Assembly (NCBI RefSeq): GCF_004297265.1
Contig: NZ_SCUT01000019.1
Span: forward strand, 62,001-126,000
Reading direction: 5' to 3'
Length of the DNA stretch: 64,000 nucleotides
From: Reyranella sp.
GTDB taxonomy: Bacteria > Pseudomonadota > Alphaproteobacteria > Reyranellales > Reyranellaceae
Under the pieces are notes generated by a model. The model ran no database searches. It was not told where the DNA came from and was given only the letters and a program-made list of their open reading frames with translations. Shown piece by piece: positions 2,775 through 11,562 of the stretch. A program made the translations under genes and the position numbers. Every line of letters begins with the position of its first letter. Position 1 is the stretch's first letter.

Positions 2775-4289
2775 ATGACTCTCGACATCAACCGCGCCGA
2801 TCTCACCGTGGGCATCGTCGGCACGGGCGCCATGGGCCGCGGCATCGCCCAGGTCACCGCACAGGGCGGCATGAAGGCCATCATGTTCGACGCGGCGCCG
2901 GGCGGTGCGGCAAAGGCCAGGGCCGCGATCCTCGACACGTTGAAGGGCCTGGTCGCCAAGGGCCGTCTCACCGAGGCTGACCTCGCCAAGGCGGAGGCCA
3001 ATCTCGGCGTCGCCGAGAAAATCGAGGATCTCAAGGGCTGCCACGTCGTCGTCGAGGCGGTGTTCGAGAATCTCGAGGTGAAGCAGAAGCTGTTCGGCGA
3101 GCTCGAGGCGGTGATCGCGCCCGACGCCATCCTGGCCTCCAACACCTCGTCGATCCGCATCGCCTCGATCGCACGCGCGCTGAAGCATCGCGACCGCGTC
3201 TGCGGCATGCACTATTTCAATCCCGTGCCGCTGATGAAGCTGGTCGAGGTCATCCGTGCCGCCGACACCGCGCAATGGGTGGTCGACGCCATGGTGGCGC
3301 TGGGCAAGCGCCAGACCCGCGTGCCCGTGGTGGTCGGCGACACGCCGGGCTTCCTGGTCAATCTCGGCGGCACGGCGATCGGCACCGAAGGCCTGCGCAT
3401 CATGCAGGAGGGCCGGGCGACGCCGTCACAGGTCGATGCCGTGATGCGCGACACCTGCGGCTTCCGCATGGGCCCGTTCGAGCTGATGGACCTCACCGGC
3501 ATCGACGTGAACTTCCCGGCGCGCAAGATCATCTACGAAGGCTTCTTCCACGACCGGCGCATGACGCCGAGCCCCTATCACGAGAGCCTCTATGCGGCGG
3601 GCAAGCTCGGCCGCAAGACCGGCGGCGGCTGGTACGCCTATGACGAGAAGGGCGCGAAGATCGATGCCGGGGCCGACCATCCGACCTCGCACGTGCCGGC
3701 GTCGAGCGTGGTCATCATGGACACGCACAACACCAAGCTGATGGGCCTGGTGAGCGCCGACGGCGCGAAGATGCTGGCGGCCGACGACGGCAAGAGCCCG
3801 ATCTTGGTGGCGCCGATCGGCAAGGACTGCACCACGACCGCGATCGAGCTTGGCCTCGACCCCAGGCGCACCGTCGCGGTCGACCTGACCGGTGACGTGT
3901 CCAAGCGCATCACCATCATGATGGCGCCGGGCTTCGATCCGGCGATCCGCGACGCCACCGTGGCGCTGCTCGCCAAGTCCGGCACCAAGGTGACGGTGAT
4001 CAAGGACTCGCCGGGCTTCATCGCCCAGCGCATGTGCGCGATGATCGCCAATCTCGGCTGCGAGATGGCGATGATCGGCATCGCCTCGGCCGCCGACGTC
4101 GACACGGCGATGACGCTCGGCCTCAACTATCCGCGCGGCCCGCTGGCCCTGGCCGACTGGCTGGGCGTCAAGGAATGCCACGAGATCCTGGTGCAAATCC
4201 AGGCGATCACCGGCGACGACCGCTACCGCCCCAGCCAGTGGCTGCGCCGCCGCGCGATGCTGGGGCTCAGCGCCACGACGGTCGAGTAG
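2775..4289 (+). CDS. 3-hydroxyacyl-CoA dehydrogenase, two-domain (PaaH/3-hydroxybutyryl-CoA dehydrogenase type)
   Basis: Oxidises L-3-hydroxyacyl-CoA to 3-ketoacyl-CoA with NAD. The Rossmann motif GTGAMG is at residues 16-21, the SNTSS segment follows near 120, and the catalytic histidine is in HYFNP (about residue 146). A second C-terminal 3HCDH-like unit with PGFIAQR and YPRGPLAL gives a total of 504 residues, matching the PaaH-like two-module form and lacking an enoyl-CoA hydratase part. ATG 2775 follows an AAGGAAAG ribosome site just after repeat A. The last 17 codons, from the GTGGCT at 4238, were duplicated downstream (see 5192-5243). The acyl chain length handled is unknown. Confidence 0.88.
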   Translation: MTLDINRADLTVGIVGTGAMGRGIAQVTAQGGMKAIMFDAAPGGAAKARAAILDTLKGLVAKGRLTEADLAKAEANLGVAEKIEDLKGCHVVVEAVFENLEVKQKLFGELEAVIAPDAILASNTSSIRIASIARALKHRDRVCGMHYFNPVPLMKLVEVIRAADTAQWVVDAMVALGKRQTRVPVVVGDTPGFLVNLGGTAIGTEGLRIMQEGRATPSQVDAVMRDTCGFRMGPFELMDLTGIDVNFPARKIIYEGFFHDRRMTPSPYHESLYAAGKLGRKTGGGWYAYDEKGAKIDAGADHPTSHVPASSVVIMDTHNTKLMGLVSADGAKMLAADDGKSPILVAPIGKDCTTTAIELGLDPRRTVAVDLTGDVSKRITIMMAPGFDPAIRDATVALLAKSGTKVTVIKDSPGFIAQRMCAMIANLGCEMAMIGIASAADVDTAMTLGLNYPRGPLALADWLGVKECHEILVQIQAITGDDRYRPSQWLRRRAMLGLSATTVE

Positions 4290-4355
4290 AGATCGGCAAG
4301 GAACAGTGTCGTCGAATCGCCGTTCAATCCCCTGCAGACTTTGCAGGGGAACCCG

Positions 4356-4922
4356 ATGAAGCGACGTATATGGACGGCGGTCGGCCTCGCGCTGATCGTT
4401 TACGCCACCGCCGGAGCCGGACAGGCCCAGCAGCTCAAGAACGAGAACCTGCTCGTCGGCGTGCCGCAGGGTTTCAAGCTGGGCTTCAAGGATTCGAAGA
4501 ACGGCATGAACATGCAGGAGTTCGTCCCGGCGGCCGAGACGGTGCAGAACTGGACGGAGATGGTCACGGTTCAGGTCTTCCTGAGCCGGAAGGACCTGGA
4601 GCCGTCCCAGTTTCTCGCCCTGATGCAGAAGCAGTGGGCCGAGGCGTGCAAGGGCAGCACACTCACGCCGGTCGCAAGCGGCAAGGTGAACGGCTACGAG
4701 TCCGCCACGGTCCTGCTGCGCTGTCCCTTGCTCGCGTCCACAGGCAAGCCGGAGACCACGATGCTGAAGGCGATCAAGGGCAACGACAGCTTCTACGTCG
4801 TGCAGCGCGCCGTGCGGTCGGTCCCGACGCCCGAGCGGCTGGAGACGATGAAGAAGTACATCGAGAGCGTCAGCGTCTGCGACTCGCGCCTGCCGTCTCG
4901 GCCCTGCCCAACCGTAAAATAG
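4356..4922 (+). CDS. Secreted protein of unknown function
   Basis: A 188-residue protein I do not recognise. It begins with a clear Sec signal peptide (MKRR, a hydrophobic stretch to about residue 20, and AGQAQQ at the likely cleavage site), so it is probably periplasmic. The mature part has a pair of cysteines and a short C-terminal stretch (VCDSRLPSRPCPTVK). ATG 4356 follows GCAGGGGAACCCG; a TTG at 4341 is also in frame but is less well placed. The gene lies inside a tandemly duplicated segment: a remnant of a second copy of its 3' end is at 5769-5828, next to the intact map gene. Confidence 0.7.
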   Translation: MKRRIWTAVGLALIVYATAGAGQAQQLKNENLLVGVPQGFKLGFKDSKNGMNMQEFVPAAETVQNWTEMVTVQVFLSRKDLEPSQFLALMQKQWAEACKGSTLTPVASGKVNGYESATVLLRCPLLASTGKPETTMLKAIKGNDSFYVVQRAVRSVPTPERLETMKKYIESVSVCDSRLPSRPCPTVK

Positions 4923-4945
4923 CGCCGGTCAAATAGCGGCGCCGC

Positions 4946-5191
4946 TCAGGCCAGCGTCAGGATCAGCGGCCCCCGACGGGTCGCGACCAGCGTATGCTCG
5001 TACTGCACCGTGGCCTGATGTAGCGGCGGGTGCAGCGTCCAGCCATCGTCCAATTCTTCGACGTAGTCAGCGTCCAGCGACAGGAATGGCTCGATCGTGA
5101 AGACCAGGCCTTCCGTGATCCTGCGGCGGTCGTGCTTCTCGTACCAGGTGGGAATTTCCGACGGCTCGTCGTGTAGCGACCGCCCGACACC
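4946..5191 (-). pseudogene. Truncated duplicate of methionine aminopeptidase (C-terminal third)
   Basis: Reading leftwards, this encodes the last ~80 residues of the intact map gene at 5839-6585 with high identity: it starts at SHGVGRSLHDEP and ends RRGPLILTLA. It keeps the copies of H167, E201 and E232 but lacks the N-terminal two thirds, including the metal ligands D93 and D104, so it cannot be a working peptidase. The open frame continues in-frame to 5269 through antisense sequence of a dehydrogenase remnant, producing a chimeric ORF of 107 codons. Whether that ORF is translated is unknown; no ribosome site was evident. Confidence 0.85.
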
Positions 5192-5243
5192 GTGGCTGCG
5201 CCGCCGCGCGATGCTGGGATTGAGCGCGACGACGGTGGAGTGA
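5192..5243 (+). pseudogene. Remnant of the 3' end of the 3-hydroxyacyl-CoA dehydrogenase gene
   Basis: Translated on the + strand, this reads WLRRRAMLGLSATTVE followed by a stop, exactly the C-terminus of the dehydrogenase ending at 4289. The first 27 bases from GTGGCT are identical to the original and the rest has a few silent changes. It directly abuts the truncated map copy on the opposite strand. GTGGCT occurs at both parent sites (4238 in the dehydrogenase, 6085-6090 in map), marking the duplication junction. Confidence 0.88.
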
Positions 5244-5399
5244 AGCGTCGCTGTTCGATACCAACTCACCGCCGCGACGATTGATATACGCCGGGTAACA
5301 TCAGGTTATTTTTTGCGAGGTCGTTGAATTCTCCTTGTTCGTCCGAGGCGTGTCCGCATCCCACATCGGGTGTCTCACATCCAACTGGAGATGCGGACA

Positions 5400-5687
5400 A
5401 TGATCAGACATACACTCTCGGCGCTCGCGGGCGCGCTTGTCATTGTTGCTGGGGCAAGCCCCGTCTTCGCGCAAGCGGGCGAAGACAATATGGCACGCTG
5501 CCAGCAGCTTCACGGCCTCTGGGCAAAACACAACGGAACCTCGGCCTACAGCAAGATGCTGGATGCCGACATGGGTCTCGAACAGTGTCGCAAAGGCAAC
5601 TACACCGCGGGCGTCGCGCAACTGAAGAGCGTGTTGCAGCGCCAGCAGATCCCTGTCCCGGCGGCCCCGTCGGTAGCGGCGCAGTAG
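5400..5687 (+). CDS. Small secreted protein of unknown function
   Basis: A 95-residue protein with a clear signal peptide (MIRHTLSALAG, hydrophobic run, SPVFAQA cleavage-like site) and a mature part of about 70 residues with two cysteines and helical heptad-like content. I do not recognise the family. ATG 5400 is preferred because GGAG lies 9 bases upstream; GTG 5370 and ATG 5391 are also in frame. It occupies the place where the second copy of the 188-residue secreted protein should be within the duplicated unit, but shows no visible similarity to it beyond having a signal peptide, so it was inserted or has diverged beyond recognition. Confidence 0.62.
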   Translation: MIRHTLSALAGALVIVAGASPVFAQAGEDNMARCQQLHGLWAKHNGTSAYSKMLDADMGLEQCRKGNYTAGVAQLKSVLQRQQIPVPAAPSVAAQ

Positions 5688-5768
5688 CCGAAGCATCTCT
5701 AGGTTTCGGCAGGGAGAGCGCGGGGCGATGGTCCCGCGTTCTCTTGGCGCCGGAAGTCGACGTTTGCG

Positions 5769-5828
5769 TACGTCGAGAGCGTCTGCGACTCGCGGCTGCC
5801 GTCGCGCCCCTGTCCGACGGTCAAGTAG
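5769..5828 (+). pseudogene. Remnant of the 3' end of the 188-residue secreted protein gene
   Basis: On the + strand, the bases encode YVESVCDSRLPSRPCPTVK and a stop, matching the end of the gene at 4356-4922 except for a 6-base (Ser-Val) deletion and a few substitutions. It sits 10 bases before the convergent map stop, the same arrangement as copy 1 before the truncated map. It supports a tandem duplication of the whole dehydrogenase-end/secreted-gene/map-end segment. Confidence 0.85.
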
Positions 5829-5838
5829 CGCGCGCTGC

Positions 5839-6585
5839 TCAAGCCAGGGTCAGGATCAACGGCCCGCGTCGCGTCGCGACCAGCGTGTGCTCGTACTGCA
5901 CCGTCGCCTCGTGCCCGGGCGGGCGCAGTGTCCAGCCGTCATCCATTTCTTCGACGTAATCAGCGCCCAGCGACAGGAACGGCTCGATCGTGAAGACGAG
6001 GCCTTCGGTGATGCGGCGGCGGTCATGCTTCTCGTACCACGTGGGGATTTGCGAGGGCTCATCGTGCAGCGACCGGCCGACGCCGTGGCTCGCCAGATTG
6101 CGCACCAGGCTGTAGCCCTTCTTCCGGGCGAAGGTCTCGATGGACCGTCCAACCTCGTTCAGGCGCGCGCCCGGCTTCACGGCGCGGATGCCGGCCCACA
6201 TGGCCCGGCGTCCATCCTCGCAGAGGCGTTCGATCTTGGGGCTGGTCGGCGGCACGGCGAAGCTCGCGCCGGTGTCGCCGAAGAAGCCGTCCAGCTCGGC
6301 CGAGACGTCGATGTTGATCAGGTCGCCGGCCTTGATCGCCGTGTCGTCGGGAATGCCGTGGGCGCAGTCGGGTCCCACCGAGATGCAGGTCGCGCCCGGA
6401 AAGCCGTAGGTGACTTCGGGGGCCGAGCGGGCGCCCTCCTTCTCCAGCAGGGCGCGGCCGAGATTGTCCAGTTCCCGGGTCGTCATGCCGGGCTCCAGCG
6501 CCTGACCCATGGCGGTGAGGGTACGGGCCACCAGCTTACCGACGGTGCGCAGCTTCTCCAGCTGGTCTTCATTTTCGATGGTCAT
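5839..6585 (-). CDS. map: Methionine aminopeptidase, type I
   Basis: Removes the initiator methionine from new proteins in the cytoplasm. The five metal ligands of the M24A fold can be placed: D93 (NIDV), D104 (GDTGASF), H167 (SHGVGRSLHDEP), E201 (TIEPFL) and E232 (QYEHT), with the substrate-binding H76. The length of 248 residues is normal for bacterial type Ia enzymes. ATG 6585 is chosen because TTAGGAGGG is centred about 8 bases upstream; GTG 6591 overlaps that site. It is transcribed divergently from the acyl-CoA dehydrogenase gene, an unusual setting for map. A truncated second copy of its 3' part lies immediately downstream. Confidence 0.93.
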   Translation of the reverse strand: MTIENEDQLEKLRTVGKLVARTLTAMGQALEPGMTTRELDNLGRALLEKEGARSAPEVTYGFPGATCISVGPDCAHGIPDDTAIKAGDLINIDVSAELDGFFGDTGASFAVPPTSPKIERLCEDGRRAMWAGIRAVKPGARLNEVGRSIETFARKKGYSLVRNLASHGVGRSLHDEPSQIPTWYEKHDRRRITEGLVFTIEPFLSLGADYVEEMDDGWTLRPPGHEATVQYEHTLVATRRGPLILTLA

Positions 6586-6710
6586 GGTCACCCTCCTAAC
6601 CGCCGTTGACGTTTACGTAAAGGTAAACTACCTACCTTGGGCTGGCGGACGAACCGCCGGCGGCTCACAGTCCCTTCAAGAAGACTGACCCTACCGATCG
6701 TTGGAGGACG

Positions 6711-7859
6711 ATGCTCGTGACTGCCGCTCTGGCCGCGCATTACACGCAAGAACACCAGATGTTCCGTGAGACCTGCCGGCGCTTCTTCGAGAAGGAAGTG
6801 ACCCCGTTCCACATGAAGTGGGAAGAGGAGGGGATCGTGCCGCGCGAGCTGTGGCGCAAGGCGGGCGAGCAGGGGCTGCTGGGCATGACCATGCCCGAGG
6901 CCTATGGCGGCGCGGGCGGCGATTTCCTCTACAGCGCCATTATGATCGAGGAGCAGGGACGGGCGCTGGCGTCGGGTCCGGCCTTCTCGCTCCATAACGA
7001 CATCGTGGTCCCCTACCTGCTCCACTACGGCACCGAGGAGCAGAAGAAGAAGTGGATTCCCAAGGCCTGCTCCGGCGAGCTGGTCACGGCCATCGCGATG
7101 ACCGAGCCGGGGACGGGATCGGATCTGCAGGCCGTCAAGACGACGGCCGTCATGGACGGCAATCACTGGGTCATCAACGGCTCCAAGACCTTCATCTCCA
7201 ACGGCCAGCTCGCCGACCTGGTGATCGTGGTCGCCAAGACCGATCCCAAGCTCGGCGCCAAGGGCACGTCGCTGATCGCCGTCGAGACGAAGACGGAAGG
7301 ATTCAAGCGCGGCCGCAATCTCGAGAAGATCGGCATGAAGGCGCAGGACACGTCGGAGCTGTTCTTCCAGGACGTGCGGGTGCCGGCCGATCACCTGCTG
7401 GGTGGGCCCGGCATGGGCTTCGTGCAGCTGATGCAGCAGCTGCCGCAGGAGCGGCTGGTGATCGCCATCCAGGCGGTGGCCGCGATCGAGGCCGCGCTGG
7501 AGCACACGCTCGCCTACGTGAAGGAGCGCAAGGCCTTCGGAAAGCAGATCATCGATTTCCAGAACACGCGCTTCAAGCTGGCCGAACTCAAGACCAAGGC
7601 CCATATCGCGCGCGTCTTCGTCGACGATTGTGTGGCGAAGCACCTCAAGGGCGAGCTCGACGTCGCGACCGCGGCGATGGCCAAGTACTGGACGACCGAG
7701 CTTCAGTGCGAGCTGATCGACGAGTGCCTGCAGTTCCACGGCGGCTACGGCTACATGTGGGAATACCCGATCGCCCGCCTCTACGCCGACGCCCGCGTGC
7801 AGAAGATCTATGGCGGCACCAACGAGATCATGAAGGAACTGATTGGGCGGACGCTCTGA
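6711..7859 (+). CDS. Acyl-CoA dehydrogenase (long-chain type)
   Basis: FAD flavoprotein that makes the 2,3-double bond in acyl-CoA as the first step of beta-oxidation. It has the N-terminal helical domain (EHQMFRETCRRFFEKEV), the AMTEPGTGSD flavin-binding loop near residue 125 and the C-terminal YGGTNEIMKELIGR segment at 367. Glycine stands where medium-chain enzymes have the catalytic glutamate (Y-E-G-T); instead LPQERL carries E247, the location used by long-chain and isovaleryl enzymes. ATG 6711 is 3 bases after GGAGG; the in-frame GTG 6717 would have better spacing, so the first two residues are uncertain. It is followed by a repeat, then the thiolase gene. Confidence 0.9.
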   Translation: MLVTAALAAHYTQEHQMFRETCRRFFEKEVTPFHMKWEEEGIVPRELWRKAGEQGLLGMTMPEAYGGAGGDFLYSAIMIEEQGRALASGPAFSLHNDIVVPYLLHYGTEEQKKKWIPKACSGELVTAIAMTEPGTGSDLQAVKTTAVMDGNHWVINGSKTFISNGQLADLVIVVAKTDPKLGAKGTSLIAVETKTEGFKRGRNLEKIGMKAQDTSELFFQDVRVPADHLLGGPGMGFVQLMQQLPQERLVIAIQAVAAIEAALEHTLAYVKERKAFGKQIIDFQNTRFKLAELKTKAHIARVFVDDCVAKHLKGELDVATAAMAKYWTTELQCELIDECLQFHGGYGYMWEYPIARLYADARVQKIYGGTNEIMKELIGRTL

Positions 7860-7867
7860 CTTTTCAT

Positions 7868-7976
7868 CCTCATCCTGAGGAGCCGCGCTTCGCGCGGCGT
7901 CTCGAAGGATGGGCAACACCAAGACTAGTTCCCACCCTTCGAGACGCGGTCCTGCGGACCGCTCCTCAGGGTGAGG
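7868..7976. repeat. Inverted repeat family B, copy 1
   Basis: Two arms, 7868-7913 and 7931-7976, are imperfect reverse complements: the left begins CCTCATCCTGAGGAG and runs to TCTCGAAGGATGGG, the right begins CCCACCCTTCGAGACGCG and ends CTCAGGGTGAGG. Each arm has a small GC-rich hairpin inside (CCGCGCTTCGCGCGG on the left). The same layout occurs at 24259-24366. It resembles the abundant intergenic mosaic repeats of rhizobia and relatives (known in outline; not compared here). It fills the gap between acyl-CoA dehydrogenase and thiolase. Confidence 0.85.
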
Positions 7977-8012
7977 TCAAAGGGTAATCTGGACATTGAA
8001 TAGGAGACCGAC

Positions 8013-9224
8013 ATGACCGACGCATACATCTACGACGCCGTCCGCACGCCGCGCGGCAAGGGCCGCAAGGATGGCTCCCTGCATGAAGTGACGCCGGTGC
8101 GCCTGGCCGTCACCGCGCTGCAGGCCGTGCGAGACCGCAACAATCTCGACACGCACCTGGTCGACGACATCGTGCTGGGCTGCGTCATGCCGATCGGCGA
8201 GCAGGGCGCCGACATCGCGCGCACCGCGTCGGTGATGGCGGGCTATGCCGAGACCGTCTCGGGCGTGCAGGTCAACCGCTTCTGCGCCTCGGGCCTCGAA
8301 GCCACCAACATGGCGGCGGCGCAGGTCATGTCGGGCCAGAGCCAGGCCGCGATTGGCGGCGGAGTCGAGAGCATGAGCCGCGTGCCGATGGGTTCGGACG
8401 GTGGCGCCTGGGCGGTCGACCCGGCCGTGGCGATCCCGATGTACTTCGTGCCGCAGGGCGTTTCGGCCGACCTGATCGCCACCAAGTACGGCATGAGCCG
8501 CGACGACGTCGACAGCTATGCCGTCGAATCGCAGAGGCGCGCCAAGGCCGCCTGGGACGCCGGCTACTTCAAGAAGTCGATCGTCCCCGTGCGCGACCAG
8601 AACGGCATCGAGCTGCTGGCCCATGACGAATTCCTGCGCCCGACCACGACCATGCAGACGCTGGCCGCGCTGGAGCCCAGCTTCAAGATGCAGGGCGAGA
8701 TGATGCCGGGCTTCAACGCGGTGGCGCAGCAGCGCTATCCCGAGGTCGAGAAGATCAATCACGTGCACCATGCCGGCAACTCGTCGGGCATCGTCGACGG
8801 CGCCGCCGCGATCCTCGTGGGCTCCAAGGAGTTCGGCGAGAAGGCGGGGCTGAAGCCGCGCGCCCGCATCCGCTCCTTCGCCTCGATCGGCTCGGAGCCC
8901 GCGATCATGCTGACCGGTCCGGCGCCGGCCTCGGAGAAGGCGCTGAAGCGCGCCGGCATGTCGGCGAGCGACATCGACCTGTTCGAGCTGAACGAGGCCT
9001 TCGCCGCCGTCGTGCTGCGCTACATGCAGATCCTCAAGATGCCGCACGACAAGATCAACGTGAACGGCGGCGCGATCGCCATGGGCCATCCGCTGGGCGC
9101 CACCGGCGCGATGATCCTCGGCACGCTGCTCGACGAACTCGAGCGCCGCAACCTCTCGACCGGCCTCGCCACGCTCTGCGTCGGCGGCGGCATGGGCACC
9201 GCCACCATCATCGAGCGCGTCTGA
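8013..9224 (+). CDS. Acetyl-CoA C-acyltransferase (thiolase)
   Basis: Cleaves 3-ketoacyl-CoA with CoA to acetyl-CoA and a shortened acyl-CoA. Catalytic residues are visible: nucleophile C91 in [11 protein letters not shown]359 in [14 protein letters not shown] and C389 in TLCVGGGMG. The 403-residue length is normal for the family. The lack of the usual long Zn-region or other fusion makes it a plain degradative thiolase, most like FadA/FadI partners of the FadB-type protein encoded next. ATG 8013 follows GGAGACCGAC. It lies between repeat B (upstream) and repeat A (downstream), together with the beta-oxidation genes, and was probably transcribed with them. Confidence 0.92.
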
Positions 9225-9297
9225 GGAGCGCGCCACTCCAGTGGCGCTCTTCTTCAAGCTTCGACATCTCTTGAGCGCCACAGGAGTGGCGCGCTCC
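9225..9297. repeat. Inverted repeat family A, copy 2
   Basis: Arms at 9225-9249 and 9273-9297 are reverse complements with one mismatch in 25 bases and a 23-base loop. The arm sequence is the same as at 2690-2753 (core GCGCGCCACTCCAGTGGCGC), whereas the loops differ. It begins immediately after the thiolase stop codon, as copy 1 begins at the prpE stop, and ends just before the next gene's ribosome site. Confidence 0.85.
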
Positions 9298-9312
9298 AAT
9301 GAGGACTGAAAC

Positions 9313-11562
9313 ATGATCAACTACAACGTCGATTCGGACGGCATCGCGACCATCACCTGGGACATGCCCAACCGGGCGATGAACGTGCTGAACGAGGCCT
9401 CGATGACGGCCTATGCCGGCGCGCTCGAGACCGCCCTGAAGGACGACAAGGTCAAGGGCATCATCATCACGTCGGGCAAGGACAGCTTCATCGCCGGCGC
9501 CGACCTCGAGATGATCCTGAGCCTCGATACGTCCGATGCGTCGAAGCTGATGGAGCAGTTCAGCCAGCTGCAGAAGATGTTCCGCCGCCAGGAGACCGGC
9601 GGCAAGCCGGTCGTGGCCGCGATCAACGGCACGGCGCTGGGCGGCGGCTTCGAGATCTGCCTCGCCACGCACTACCGCATCGCCGCGGTCAACCCGAAGA
9701 CCAAGGTCGGTCAACCCGAGGTGAAGATCGGGCTGCTGCCGGGCGGCGGCGGCACGCAGCGCATTCCGCGCCTGATCGGCGTGCAGAACGCCGCGCCGAT
9801 CCTGCTCGAAGGCAAGGACCTCACGGTCGACGCCGCCAAGGGCCTCGGCCTGATCCACGAGGTCGTGCCGGCCGGCGAGTTGCTGGCCCGTGCCAAGGCC
9901 TGGCTGACAGCGCCGGCGACCGAGCAGGTCGTGCCGGAATATGCCGGCAAGGGCGCCAAGGCGATCGACGGCCGCGCCGTGCAGCCGTGGGACCGCAAGG
10001 GCTTCAAGGTGCCGGGTTTCCCCGGCGGCCAGGTCTGGAGCCCGCCCGGCGTCATGACCTTCATCGGCGGCAGCGCCATGGTGCGCGGCAAGACCAACGG
10101 CGTCTATCCGGCCCCGAAGGCGATCATGAGCTGCGTCTATGAAGGGCTCCAGCTGCCGTTCGATGCCGGTCTCAGGGTCGAGACCCGCTACTTCGTCTCG
10201 CTGCTGCGCGACCCCGTCGCCAAGAGCATGATCCGCACCTTGTTCTTCGGCCTGCAGGAAGCCAACAAGCTGGTGCGCCGGCCCAAGGGCGTGCCCAAGC
10301 AGGAGTACAAGAAGATCGGCGTGCTGGGCGCCGGCCTGATGGGCGCGGGCATCGCCACCGTCTCGGTGCAGGCCGGGCTCGACATCGTGCTGATCGATCG
10401 CGACCAGGCGGCGGCCGACAAGGGCAAGGCGCACATCGCCGACGAGTTGGGCAAGCTGGTGAAGCGCAAGCGCCTCGACCAGGCCAAGGCCGACGCGATG
10501 CTGGCCAAGGTCACGGCGACGCCGGACTTCGGCGCGCTCAAGGACTGCGACCTCGTGATCGAGGCCGTGTTCGAGAACCGCGAAGTGAAGGCCGAGGCCA
10601 CGAAGAAGGCCGAGGCTGCGCTGCCGAAGGCCGCGGTGTTCGCGTCGAACACCTCGACCTTGCCGATCACCGGCCTTGCCGAAGCCTCGTCGCGGCCCGA
10701 CCAGTTCATCGGCCTGCATTTCTTCTCGCCGGTCGAGAAGATGCCGCTGGTCGAGATCATCGTCGGCAAGAAGACCTCGCAGGAGACGCTCGCGCGCGCC
10801 CTCGACTTCGTCCAGAAGATCCGCAAGACGCCGATCGTCGTGAACGACAGCCGTGGGTTCTTCACCTCCCGCGTCTGCGGCGCCTTCATCAGCGAAGGCC
10901 ATCGCATGCTGAAGGAAGGCGTGCCGGCCGCGATGATCGAGAACTGCGCGCGCTATGCCGGCATGCCGGTGGGCCCGCTGTCGCTCAACGACGAGGTCGC
11001 CATCGACCTGTCGTGGAAGATCATGGACCAGACGCGGCGCGACGCCGAGGCGGCCGGTCAGAAGTTCGAAGGCGCCGGCACCGAGGACATCCTCGAACTG
11101 ATGGTGAAGAAGCTGGAGCGCTTCGGGCGCAAGAACGGCAAGGGCTTCTACGAGTATCCGGCCGACGGCAAGAAGCGCCTGTGGCCGGAGCTGCAGAAGT
11201 ACTTCCCGGCCGATCCGGCGCTGCTCTACGGCGAGGGCGAGGACAAGCGCGCCAAGGAGGACGAGATCAAGAAGCGCCTGCTCTACGTGCAGGCGGTCGA
11301 CACCGCGCGCTGCCTCGAGGGCAACGTGCTGACCAACCCGCAGGACGGCGACGTCGGCTCGATCATGGGCCTGGGCTTCGCGCCGCAGACCGGCGGGGCG
11401 ATCAGCCTGATCGACCAGGTCGGCATCAAGAAGTTCGTCGCCGAGTGCGACGAGTTCGCGAAGAAGTACGGCCCTCAGTTCGAGGTGCCGAAGCTGCTGC
11501 GCGACATGGCCGCCAAGGGCGAGAGCTTCTACGGCAAGTACCAGCCGGCGAAGGCGGCTTAG
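9313..11562 (+). CDS. fadB: Multifunctional enoyl-CoA hydratase/3-hydroxyacyl-CoA dehydrogenase (FadB/FadJ type)
   Basis: Carries out hydration of trans-2-enoyl-CoA and then NAD-linked oxidation of the L-3-hydroxyacyl-CoA. The N-terminal crotonase domain (about 1-190) has the oxyanion segment FIAGADLE near 56 and catalytic-type glutamates at 114 (GGFEICLA) and 136 (QPEVKIGLLPGGGG). A linker leads to the dehydrogenase with GAGLMGAG near 337 and the catalytic histidine 469 in HFFSPVEKMPLVEI. The 749-residue length fits the alpha subunit of the beta-oxidation complex; the thiolase just upstream is the likely beta partner. ATG 9313 follows GAGGACTGAAAC right after repeat A. FadB versus FadJ cannot be settled from sequence alone. 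Confidence 0.9.
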   Translation: MINYNVDSDGIATITWDMPNRAMNVLNEASMTAYAGALETALKDDKVKGIIITSGKDSFIAGADLEMILSLDTSDASKLMEQFSQLQKMFRRQETGGKPVVAAINGTALGGGFEICLATHYRIAAVNPKTKVGQPEVKIGLLPGGGGTQRIPRLIGVQNAAPILLEGKDLTVDAAKGLGLIHEVVPAGELLARAKAWLTAPATEQVVPEYAGKGAKAIDGRAVQPWDRKGFKVPGFPGGQVWSPPGVMTFIGGSAMVRGKTNGVYPAPKAIMSCVYEGLQLPFDAGLRVETRYFVSLLRDPVAKSMIRTLFFGLQEANKLVRRPKGVPKQEYKKIGVLGAGLMGAGIATVSVQAGLDIVLIDRDQAAADKGKAHIADELGKLVKRKRLDQAKADAMLAKVTATPDFGALKDCDLVIEAVFENREVKAEATKKAEAALPKAAVFASNTSTLPITGLAEASSRPDQFIGLHFFSPVEKMPLVEIIVGKKTSQETLARALDFVQKIRKTPIVVNDSRGFFTSRVCGAFISEGHRMLKEGVPAAMIENCARYAGMPVGPLSLNDEVAIDLSWKIMDQTRRDAEAAGQKFEGAGTEDILELMVKKLERFGRKNGKGFYEYPADGKKRLWPELQKYFPADPALLYGEGEDKRAKEDEIKKRLLYVQAVDTARCLEGNVLTNPQDGDVGSIMGLGFAPQTGGAISLIDQVGIKKFVAECDEFAKKYGPQFEVPKLLRDMAAKGESFYGKYQPAKAA

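Follow-up and report, generated by a model that had tools for sequence, protein, structure and literature searches.

The DNA analysed here is a 64,000-nt stretch of a Reyranella sp. genome (G000:C24:62001-126000; hereafter the window), and our subject is the slot within it that separates the genes for a 3-hydroxyacyl-CoA dehydrogenase (HCDH) and an acyl-CoA dehydrogenase (ACAD). The slot contains SEC and SMALL (Table 1) and map, the gene for a type I methionine aminopeptidase, and it holds two copies of each of three gene parts, namely the HCDH 3' end, the SEC 3' end and the 3' third of map; the copies nearer to the HCDH gene are called c1, and the others c2. An initial annotation had read this arrangement as a tandem duplication, and the repeat geometry that it described is real. 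Alignment of the two units, which it had set as its own test, gives three matched pairs at 85-86% identity: the map 3' third (4939-5197 versus 5832-6090; 259 nt, 86%, spacing 893, BLAST E ~2e-82 within the window), the HCDH 3' end (4222-4287 versus 5176-5241; 85%, spacing 954, E ~3e-14) and the SEC 3' end (4872-4925 versus 5778-5831; 85%, spacing 906, E ~7e-11), and these E-values mean that the repeats are not a matter of chance.

The two units have only these three parts in common, and are not copies of each other throughout. The annotation had correctly listed the shared parts, as well as the HCDH end, the SEC remnant and the intact map of the second unit, but it overlooked a third piece and a second joint, together with the intact SMALL (5400-5687) and a copy of the start of the ACAD promoter (5756-5770) that lie there. 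The window consists of three allelic slot pieces arranged head to tail: HCDH–SEC–map 3', then HCDH 3' end–SMALL–ACAD promoter start, then SEC 3' end–map–ACAD promoter–ACAD. The extent of the middle piece can be read from related genomes (the genus search set comprised 65 genomes, including the window's own, G000). On the 3' side of SMALL, the window agrees as far as position 5770 with the spacer that separates SMALL from ACAD in G030, G021 and G084; past that point the sequence of these three continues across the ACAD promoter region GTTGACGTTTACGTAAAGGTAAAC, whereas the window copy ends after GTCGACGTTTGCGTA and passes into the SEC 3' end. Because the SMALL block reaches the start of the ACAD promoter, the middle piece spans the slot from HCDH to ACAD.

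As the initial annotation had claimed, GTGGCT occurs at both parental breakpoints and at the junction: it lies at 5192-5197, exactly at the joint between map and HCDH, at 4238-4243 in HCDH, and at the equivalent site of map. The parents thus share six bases at this joint (seven with the map allele of G008), and at least six shared bases are found at 0.32% of random map/HCDH breakpoints. The copies might resemble alleles of different strains simply because contigs from two strains were misjoined in assembly. Such an artefact is extremely unlikely, since the joint is internal to a 138,898-bp contig of an assembly (6.02 Mb, 66 contigs) that is 100% complete and 0.19% contaminated, since the 6-7 bp shared by the parents are too little for a k-mer overlap, and since the same type of structure occurs in a second genome, G067, described below.

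Table 1. Features of the HCDH–ACAD slot and its flanks (positions in the window).
Feature	Position	Strand	Remarks
HCDH, intact, left flank of slot	2775-4289	+	Pfam PF02737/PF00725
HCDH 3' end c1, last 51 bp of HCDH	4239-4289	+	
SEC, intact, 188-aa protein, secreted-looking by eye	4356-4922	+	no match to any Pfam or NCBIfam model
map 3' third c1, truncated	4946-5191	-	codes for 81 C-terminal residues (83 if the shared GTGGCT is counted); 86% to c2
Chimeric open reading frame, antisense HCDH end plus map C-terminus	4946-5269	-	107 aa
Joint 1, GTGGCT, map c1 to HCDH 3' end c2	5192-5197		
HCDH 3' end c2	5192-5243	+	16/16 aa identical to c1, coding differences all synonymous
SMALL upstream region	5248-5399	+	alignable to G010, G030, G021 and G084
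SMALL, intact, 95-aa protein, secreted-looking by eye	5400-5687	+	resident of this slot elsewhere; no match to any Pfam or NCBIfam model
SMALL downstream region into truncated ACAD promoter copy	5703-5770	+	
Truncated ACAD promoter copy	5756-5770		13/15 positions match 6605-6619
Joint 2, GTA, ACAD promoter copy to SEC 3' end	5768-5770		
SEC 3'-end remnant c2	5771-5828	+	6-bp deletion versus c1 and six aligned relatives
map c2, intact, accessory type I methionine aminopeptidase	5839-6591	-	Pfam PF00557; TIGR00500, 254 bits
Intact putative ACAD promoter region (GTTGACGTTTACGTAAAGGTAAAC...)	6605-6710	+	named by position and conservation
ACAD, right flank of slot	6711-7859	+	Pfam match

Divergence and species affinities of the two copies

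Over their shared parts, c1 and c2 differ by 14-16%, and the pattern of the differences is that of purifying selection. When all three parts are counted together, 38 codons differ synonymously and six nonsynonymously, compared with a neutral expectation of 30.8 nonsynonymous codons; none of 5000 simulation runs, each with an equal number of random substitutions (60% transitions), gave six or fewer. The 16 residues encoded by the SEC end are identical between the copies, as are the 16 of the HCDH end. It is on complete genes that such constraint acts; the larger part of the divergence therefore predates truncation, and c1 and c2 were working genes while they diverged.

The affinities of the copies to other species differ as well. 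In the map 3' third, c1 is closest to G027 (90.2%) and G029 (89.8%) and c2 to G008 (91.5%), with only 85.8% identity between c1 and c2; for the HCDH end and the SEC end, too, each copy has some other species that is closer to it than its partner. The SEC–map spacer of c1 is 23 bp long and resembles the 24-bp allele of G029, G017 and G025, which has an internal copy of GTCAA[AG]TAG, while that of c2 is 10 bp long, as in G027; in the remaining five relatives compared it measures 0, 3 or 213 bp. (The 213-bp spacer, in G031 at L028 4867-5084, consists of a palindromic repeat that occurs elsewhere too.) The two copies are sisters in none of 1000 bootstrap trees of the concatenated parts, and for the map 3' third alone the approximately unbiased (AU) test disfavours a sister relationship (p 0.039). 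As far as can be judged from these alignments, c1 and c2 are alleles rather than recent duplicates and most likely diverged in different genomes; on this evidence, which is indirect because no donor genome was found, the locus appears to contain DNA inserted from another genome.

These observations bear directly on the simple tandem duplication of one local sequence that the initial annotation had favoured, in which the unit of HCDH end, SEC and map would have been duplicated within the genome via GTGGCT and the copies would then have diverged and suffered losses. The repeat geometry, the 6-bp microhomology and the single-copy state in relatives all fit such an event, and yet the truncated copies should then have decayed neutrally, contrary to the scarcity of nonsynonymous changes. 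The spacer alleles differ and are shared with other species, no bootstrap tree joins the copies as sisters, and SMALL, with its own ACAD-promoter start, sits inside the supposed repeat; we therefore regard an intragenomic duplication as quite improbable.

The HCDH–ACAD slot across the genus

For a survey of HCDH ends, 56 stretches including the window were fetched, and the HCDH 3' end is present in 55 of them; duplicates are visible only within these stretches, which extend up to ~10 kb and often reach a contig end. The slot is hypervariable. Its median length is 2067 bp, with extremes of 177 and 9135 bp (44 loci, those for which both flanks were found), while the next spacer, between ACAD and thiolase, measures 23-181 bp (39 loci). 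The order HCDH–SEC–map is present once in nine relatives (G029, G017, G025, G027, G008, G015, G031, G062 and G034, the contig of the last ending inside map), and is thus likely to be the unrearranged state. Inspection of related genomes, which the initial annotation had recommended, thus showed a single-copy arrangement in these nine. Other slots contain SEC without map, SEC together with SMALL, or transporter, regulator and other genes. SMALL stands directly 5' of ACAD in G030, G021 and G084, ~1.2 kb before ACAD in G036, G071, G022 and G064, and directly 3' of SEC in G010, where the contig then ends. In G065 (L061) the interval carries a gene for a protein with several PAS domains, and the interval has internal repeats of ~70-77% identity. 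In several species, intergenic spacers of the cluster contain palindromic repeats that are REP-like (REP, repetitive extragenic palindromic), for example in the ACAD–thiolase spacer of the window (~7860-8010).

Mainly synonymous divergence and non-sister copies would also be accounted for if the full-length slot had been duplicated before the species split, with one copy later lost elsewhere and internal deletions occurring here. No relative examined keeps both copies, however, and losses would be required in the nine SEC–map relatives; the HCDH end is duplicated in just two of the 55 loci, and the other is a different event. An ancient duplication is therefore improbable.

This other case is G067, in which a cassette of two genes (proteins of 185 and 69 aa) is followed by an 87-bp duplicate of the HCDH end, at a distance of 878 bp downstream of HCDH. 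Over its 84 coding bases the duplicate shows five synonymous and three nonsynonymous codon changes, with a sixth synonymous change if the stop codon is counted. The same cassette, at 75% identity, stands directly 3' of HCDH in G088, where no second HCDH end was matched and the contig ends ~490 bp past the cassette match. With G088 as a stand-in for the donor, the inferred joint in G067 shares the 5-bp sequence AGGCC. Judged from this comparison, G067 is an independent example of equal geometry, with a new allele beside HCDH and the old HCDH end displaced downstream. The 185-aa protein looks nucleotidyltransferase-like by eye, and the cassette (G067 L063 8491-9267, minus strand; G088 C124 491-1218) is possibly a toxin-antitoxin pair, but neither G067 protein matched a Pfam or NCBIfam model. 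Two further kinds of match were taken as chance. One is an extra HCDH-end match of 11 residues in G001, on the other strand (E 0.31); the others, in several loci, are short and weak (≤38 bp, E 8e-4 at best) and pair a locus with its own HCDH end or the region upstream of its ACAD.

HCDH 3'-end duplicates thus flank inserts in two species, and in the window the c1 and c2 HCDH ends have in common an exact 27-bp run that starts at GTGGCT. Both features would be expected if the HCDH 3' end were the attachment site of small integrase-driven elements that restore the gene end. The duplicates differ, however, in the codon at which they start (their lengths are 52 and 87 bp), each start coincides with a microhomology to the insert, and one joint lies inside map. 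Searches for tyrosine integrases (PF00589) and serine recombinases (PF00239), which did not extend to transposases and other recombinases, gave no match on the locus contigs of G000, G067, G088, G030 and G084 or near the locus in G036. No integrase appears among the 25 of 59 interval-ORF families listed, from a scan of 77 of the 115 script-found open reading frames (ORFs); the ORFs not scanned were those of SEC, the majority of those of SMALL and of the clade's map, and a number of small ones. Site-specific integration is, in our judgement, very unlikely.

Gene content, the chimeric ORF and the ACAD upstream region

SEC, SMALL and the full-length map are intact genes. SEC has 78-89% amino acid identity in the ten nearest relatives that possess it, and SMALL 80-83% in G030, G021, G084 and, over 63 residues, G010. 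The map gene of the locus is a second, accessory copy, which the initial annotation had not recognized, the best-scoring map of the genome being at G000:C56. At this locus, map scores above the cut-off in nine of the 65 genus genomes, including the window's own; in addition, there is a cut copy in G034 and a remnant in G035. The latter (L037 1383-1570) is a short stretch between HCDH and ACAD that consists of 47 N-terminal residues and some 3' bases, and it looks like the result of an internal deletion of the accessory map.

The minus-strand chimeric ORF reported by the initial annotation is indeed open from 4946 to 5269. Its last 83 residues, two of which derive from GTGGCT, are the C-terminus of methionine aminopeptidase. 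It scores 74.9 bits against TIGR00500, far below the cut-off of 171.35, and matches only profile positions 166-246; in alignment, it lacks the N-terminal two thirds of the enzyme, including the two aspartates of the ID..GDTG motif, which we take to be metal ligands. At three positions map c1 carries residues (D, L and H) that differ from the 10 other copies compared, while the intact c2 has one such residue, and the three unusual residues are compatible with relaxed constraint since truncation. For these reasons a functional chimeric ORF was set aside. An ORF from a single genome cannot show selection, and this one is most likely a non-functional by-product, that is, debris.

In the ACAD upstream region GTTGACGTTTACGTAAAGGTAAACTACCT (6605-6640, with part of it also at 5756-5770), a long spacer separates a -35-like from a -10-like element, and a palindrome with the core TTTACGTAAA lies between them. 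This stretch is common to G030, G021 and G084 and, up to GTAAACTAC, to G067, and the arrangement resembles operators of the MerR family (LiuR-like). A promoter scan returned 0 promoter-like sites, and an Rfam scan of 3000-9500 in the window gave no match.

Origin of the locus and comparison with known systems

We consider it probable that the segment is a stack of three allelic slot pieces from different lineages of the genus, assembled by repeated homology-facilitated illegitimate recombination (HFIR) at one anchor. References given for HFIR are de Vries and Wackernagel 2002, Prudhomme 2002, and Meier and Wackernagel 2003. In the course of events that we infer, DNA taken up from a related species would have recombined homologously within HCDH at its left end, and its right end would have been linked by illegitimate joining, over a few shared bases, to the resident slot at a position farther upstream; older content would thereby have been pushed towards ACAD. 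In a first step, an HCDH–SMALL–ACAD-promoter allele would have been placed before the resident SEC end and map (at GTA, 5768-5770), and in a second, an HCDH–SEC–map allele before the product of the first (at GTGGCT, 5192-5197). The 6-bp GTGGCT and the 5-bp AGGCC of G067 bear out illegitimate joining of one end at short shared sequences. The three pieces and two joints of the window amount to more than one layer, with the presumably older content lying away from the anchor, and the material read as incoming is on the HCDH side in all three joints, from which the polarity would follow. The genome has two Ku matches and ComEC, which permit, and do not show, end joining or DNA uptake.

Several results weigh against this reconstruction. 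Joint 2 shares GTA only, and three or more shared bases occur at 7.4% of random breakpoints, which is not above chance. HCDH is directly followed by SMALL in no locus examined, and in the eight other loci that have both, the SMALL match starts 707-8664 bp past HCDH; the donor of the middle piece is therefore either unseen or had already lost SEC. Second HCDH ends are few (2/55 loci, the window and G067), and the displaced end of G067 is less constrained, with three nonsynonymous among eight changed codons, a proportion as low in 130 of 5000 neutral simulations. The affinities are mosaic, since c2 is nearest to G008 in map and to G027 in the SEC end (94%) and spacer. On the 348-column concatenation the AU test gives p 0.0675, above 0.05, and neither copy tree has a starred branch, so that the tree evidence by itself is consistent, not overwhelming. 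A sliding nearest-relative scan and the HCDH tree gave no clear switch or crossover point in HCDH, and trees of HCDH, ACAD, thiolase, the SEC 5' part and the map 5' part have few starred branches, none of which places the window's native lineage. Finally, ComEC is also present in 10 of 14 control genomes.

In a stronger version, the HCDH 3' end would act as a preferred and polar acceptor, and whole slot alleles would be stacked there again and again, the newest by HCDH and the oldest by ACAD, in a kind of integrase-free, integron-like stratigraphy; stacking would be tolerated there because the incoming allele supplies an equivalent gene end. We think this rather doubtful.

Repeated HFIR at HCDH, our preferred origin of the stack, can be compared with several known systems, as these are described in passages of the cited papers. 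Kirchberger et al. (2017, PMC5361080) described sequential displacement for the type VI secretion system (T6SS) immunity-gene arrays of Vibrio cholerae and proposed that it proceeds by HFIR. The present locus is like these arrays in the successive insertion beside a conserved anchor, the downstream movement of older content and the truncated remnants; it is unlike them in that its flanks are catabolic, its layers number only three, its remnants are not evidently selected, and no logic of effector and immunity genes was found in it. In HFIR as described in PMC3240628 and PMC2884548, one end is homologous and the other is joined illegitimately; according to the former account (PMC3240628), a deletion roughly as large as the insert generally accompanies the event. 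In contrast, the net result here is additive, and the homologous crossover in HCDH is a putative one. Oliveira et al. (2017, PMC5635113) attributed transfer hotspots without mobile elements to recombination in the core genes on either side, and the HCDH–ACAD slot shares with them conserved flanks, a rapid turnover of content and, in the genomes checked, no integrase found at the locus. The double homologous exchange of that model should leave no partial duplicates, however, so that the present locus would represent an illegitimate variant. Pneumococcal merodiploids produced by transformation (PMC3784515) indicate that DNA uptake can yield tandem duplications; those described are mainly 100-900 kb long and lie between repeats, with one 3.3-kb case without flanking repeats, whereas the duplication here is <2 kb and involves divergent alleles. 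A narrow literature search for Reyranella and horizontal gene transfer gave, among the matches listed, no title on this locus.

It is easy to class partial repeats of this kind as local tandem duplications. As the slots of neighbouring species, the spacer alleles and the synonymous-site test show, such scars may instead record recombination between species, with joints that can still be read, and the locus suggests a route for finding more, by searching for second copies of the 3' ends of core genes whose differences are mainly synonymous. If our reading is correct, HFIR would here have acted additively and in several layers, in a natural setting outside toxin–immunity clusters, and the locus would be, as such, a modest addition to what is known of hotspot evolution rather than a new system.

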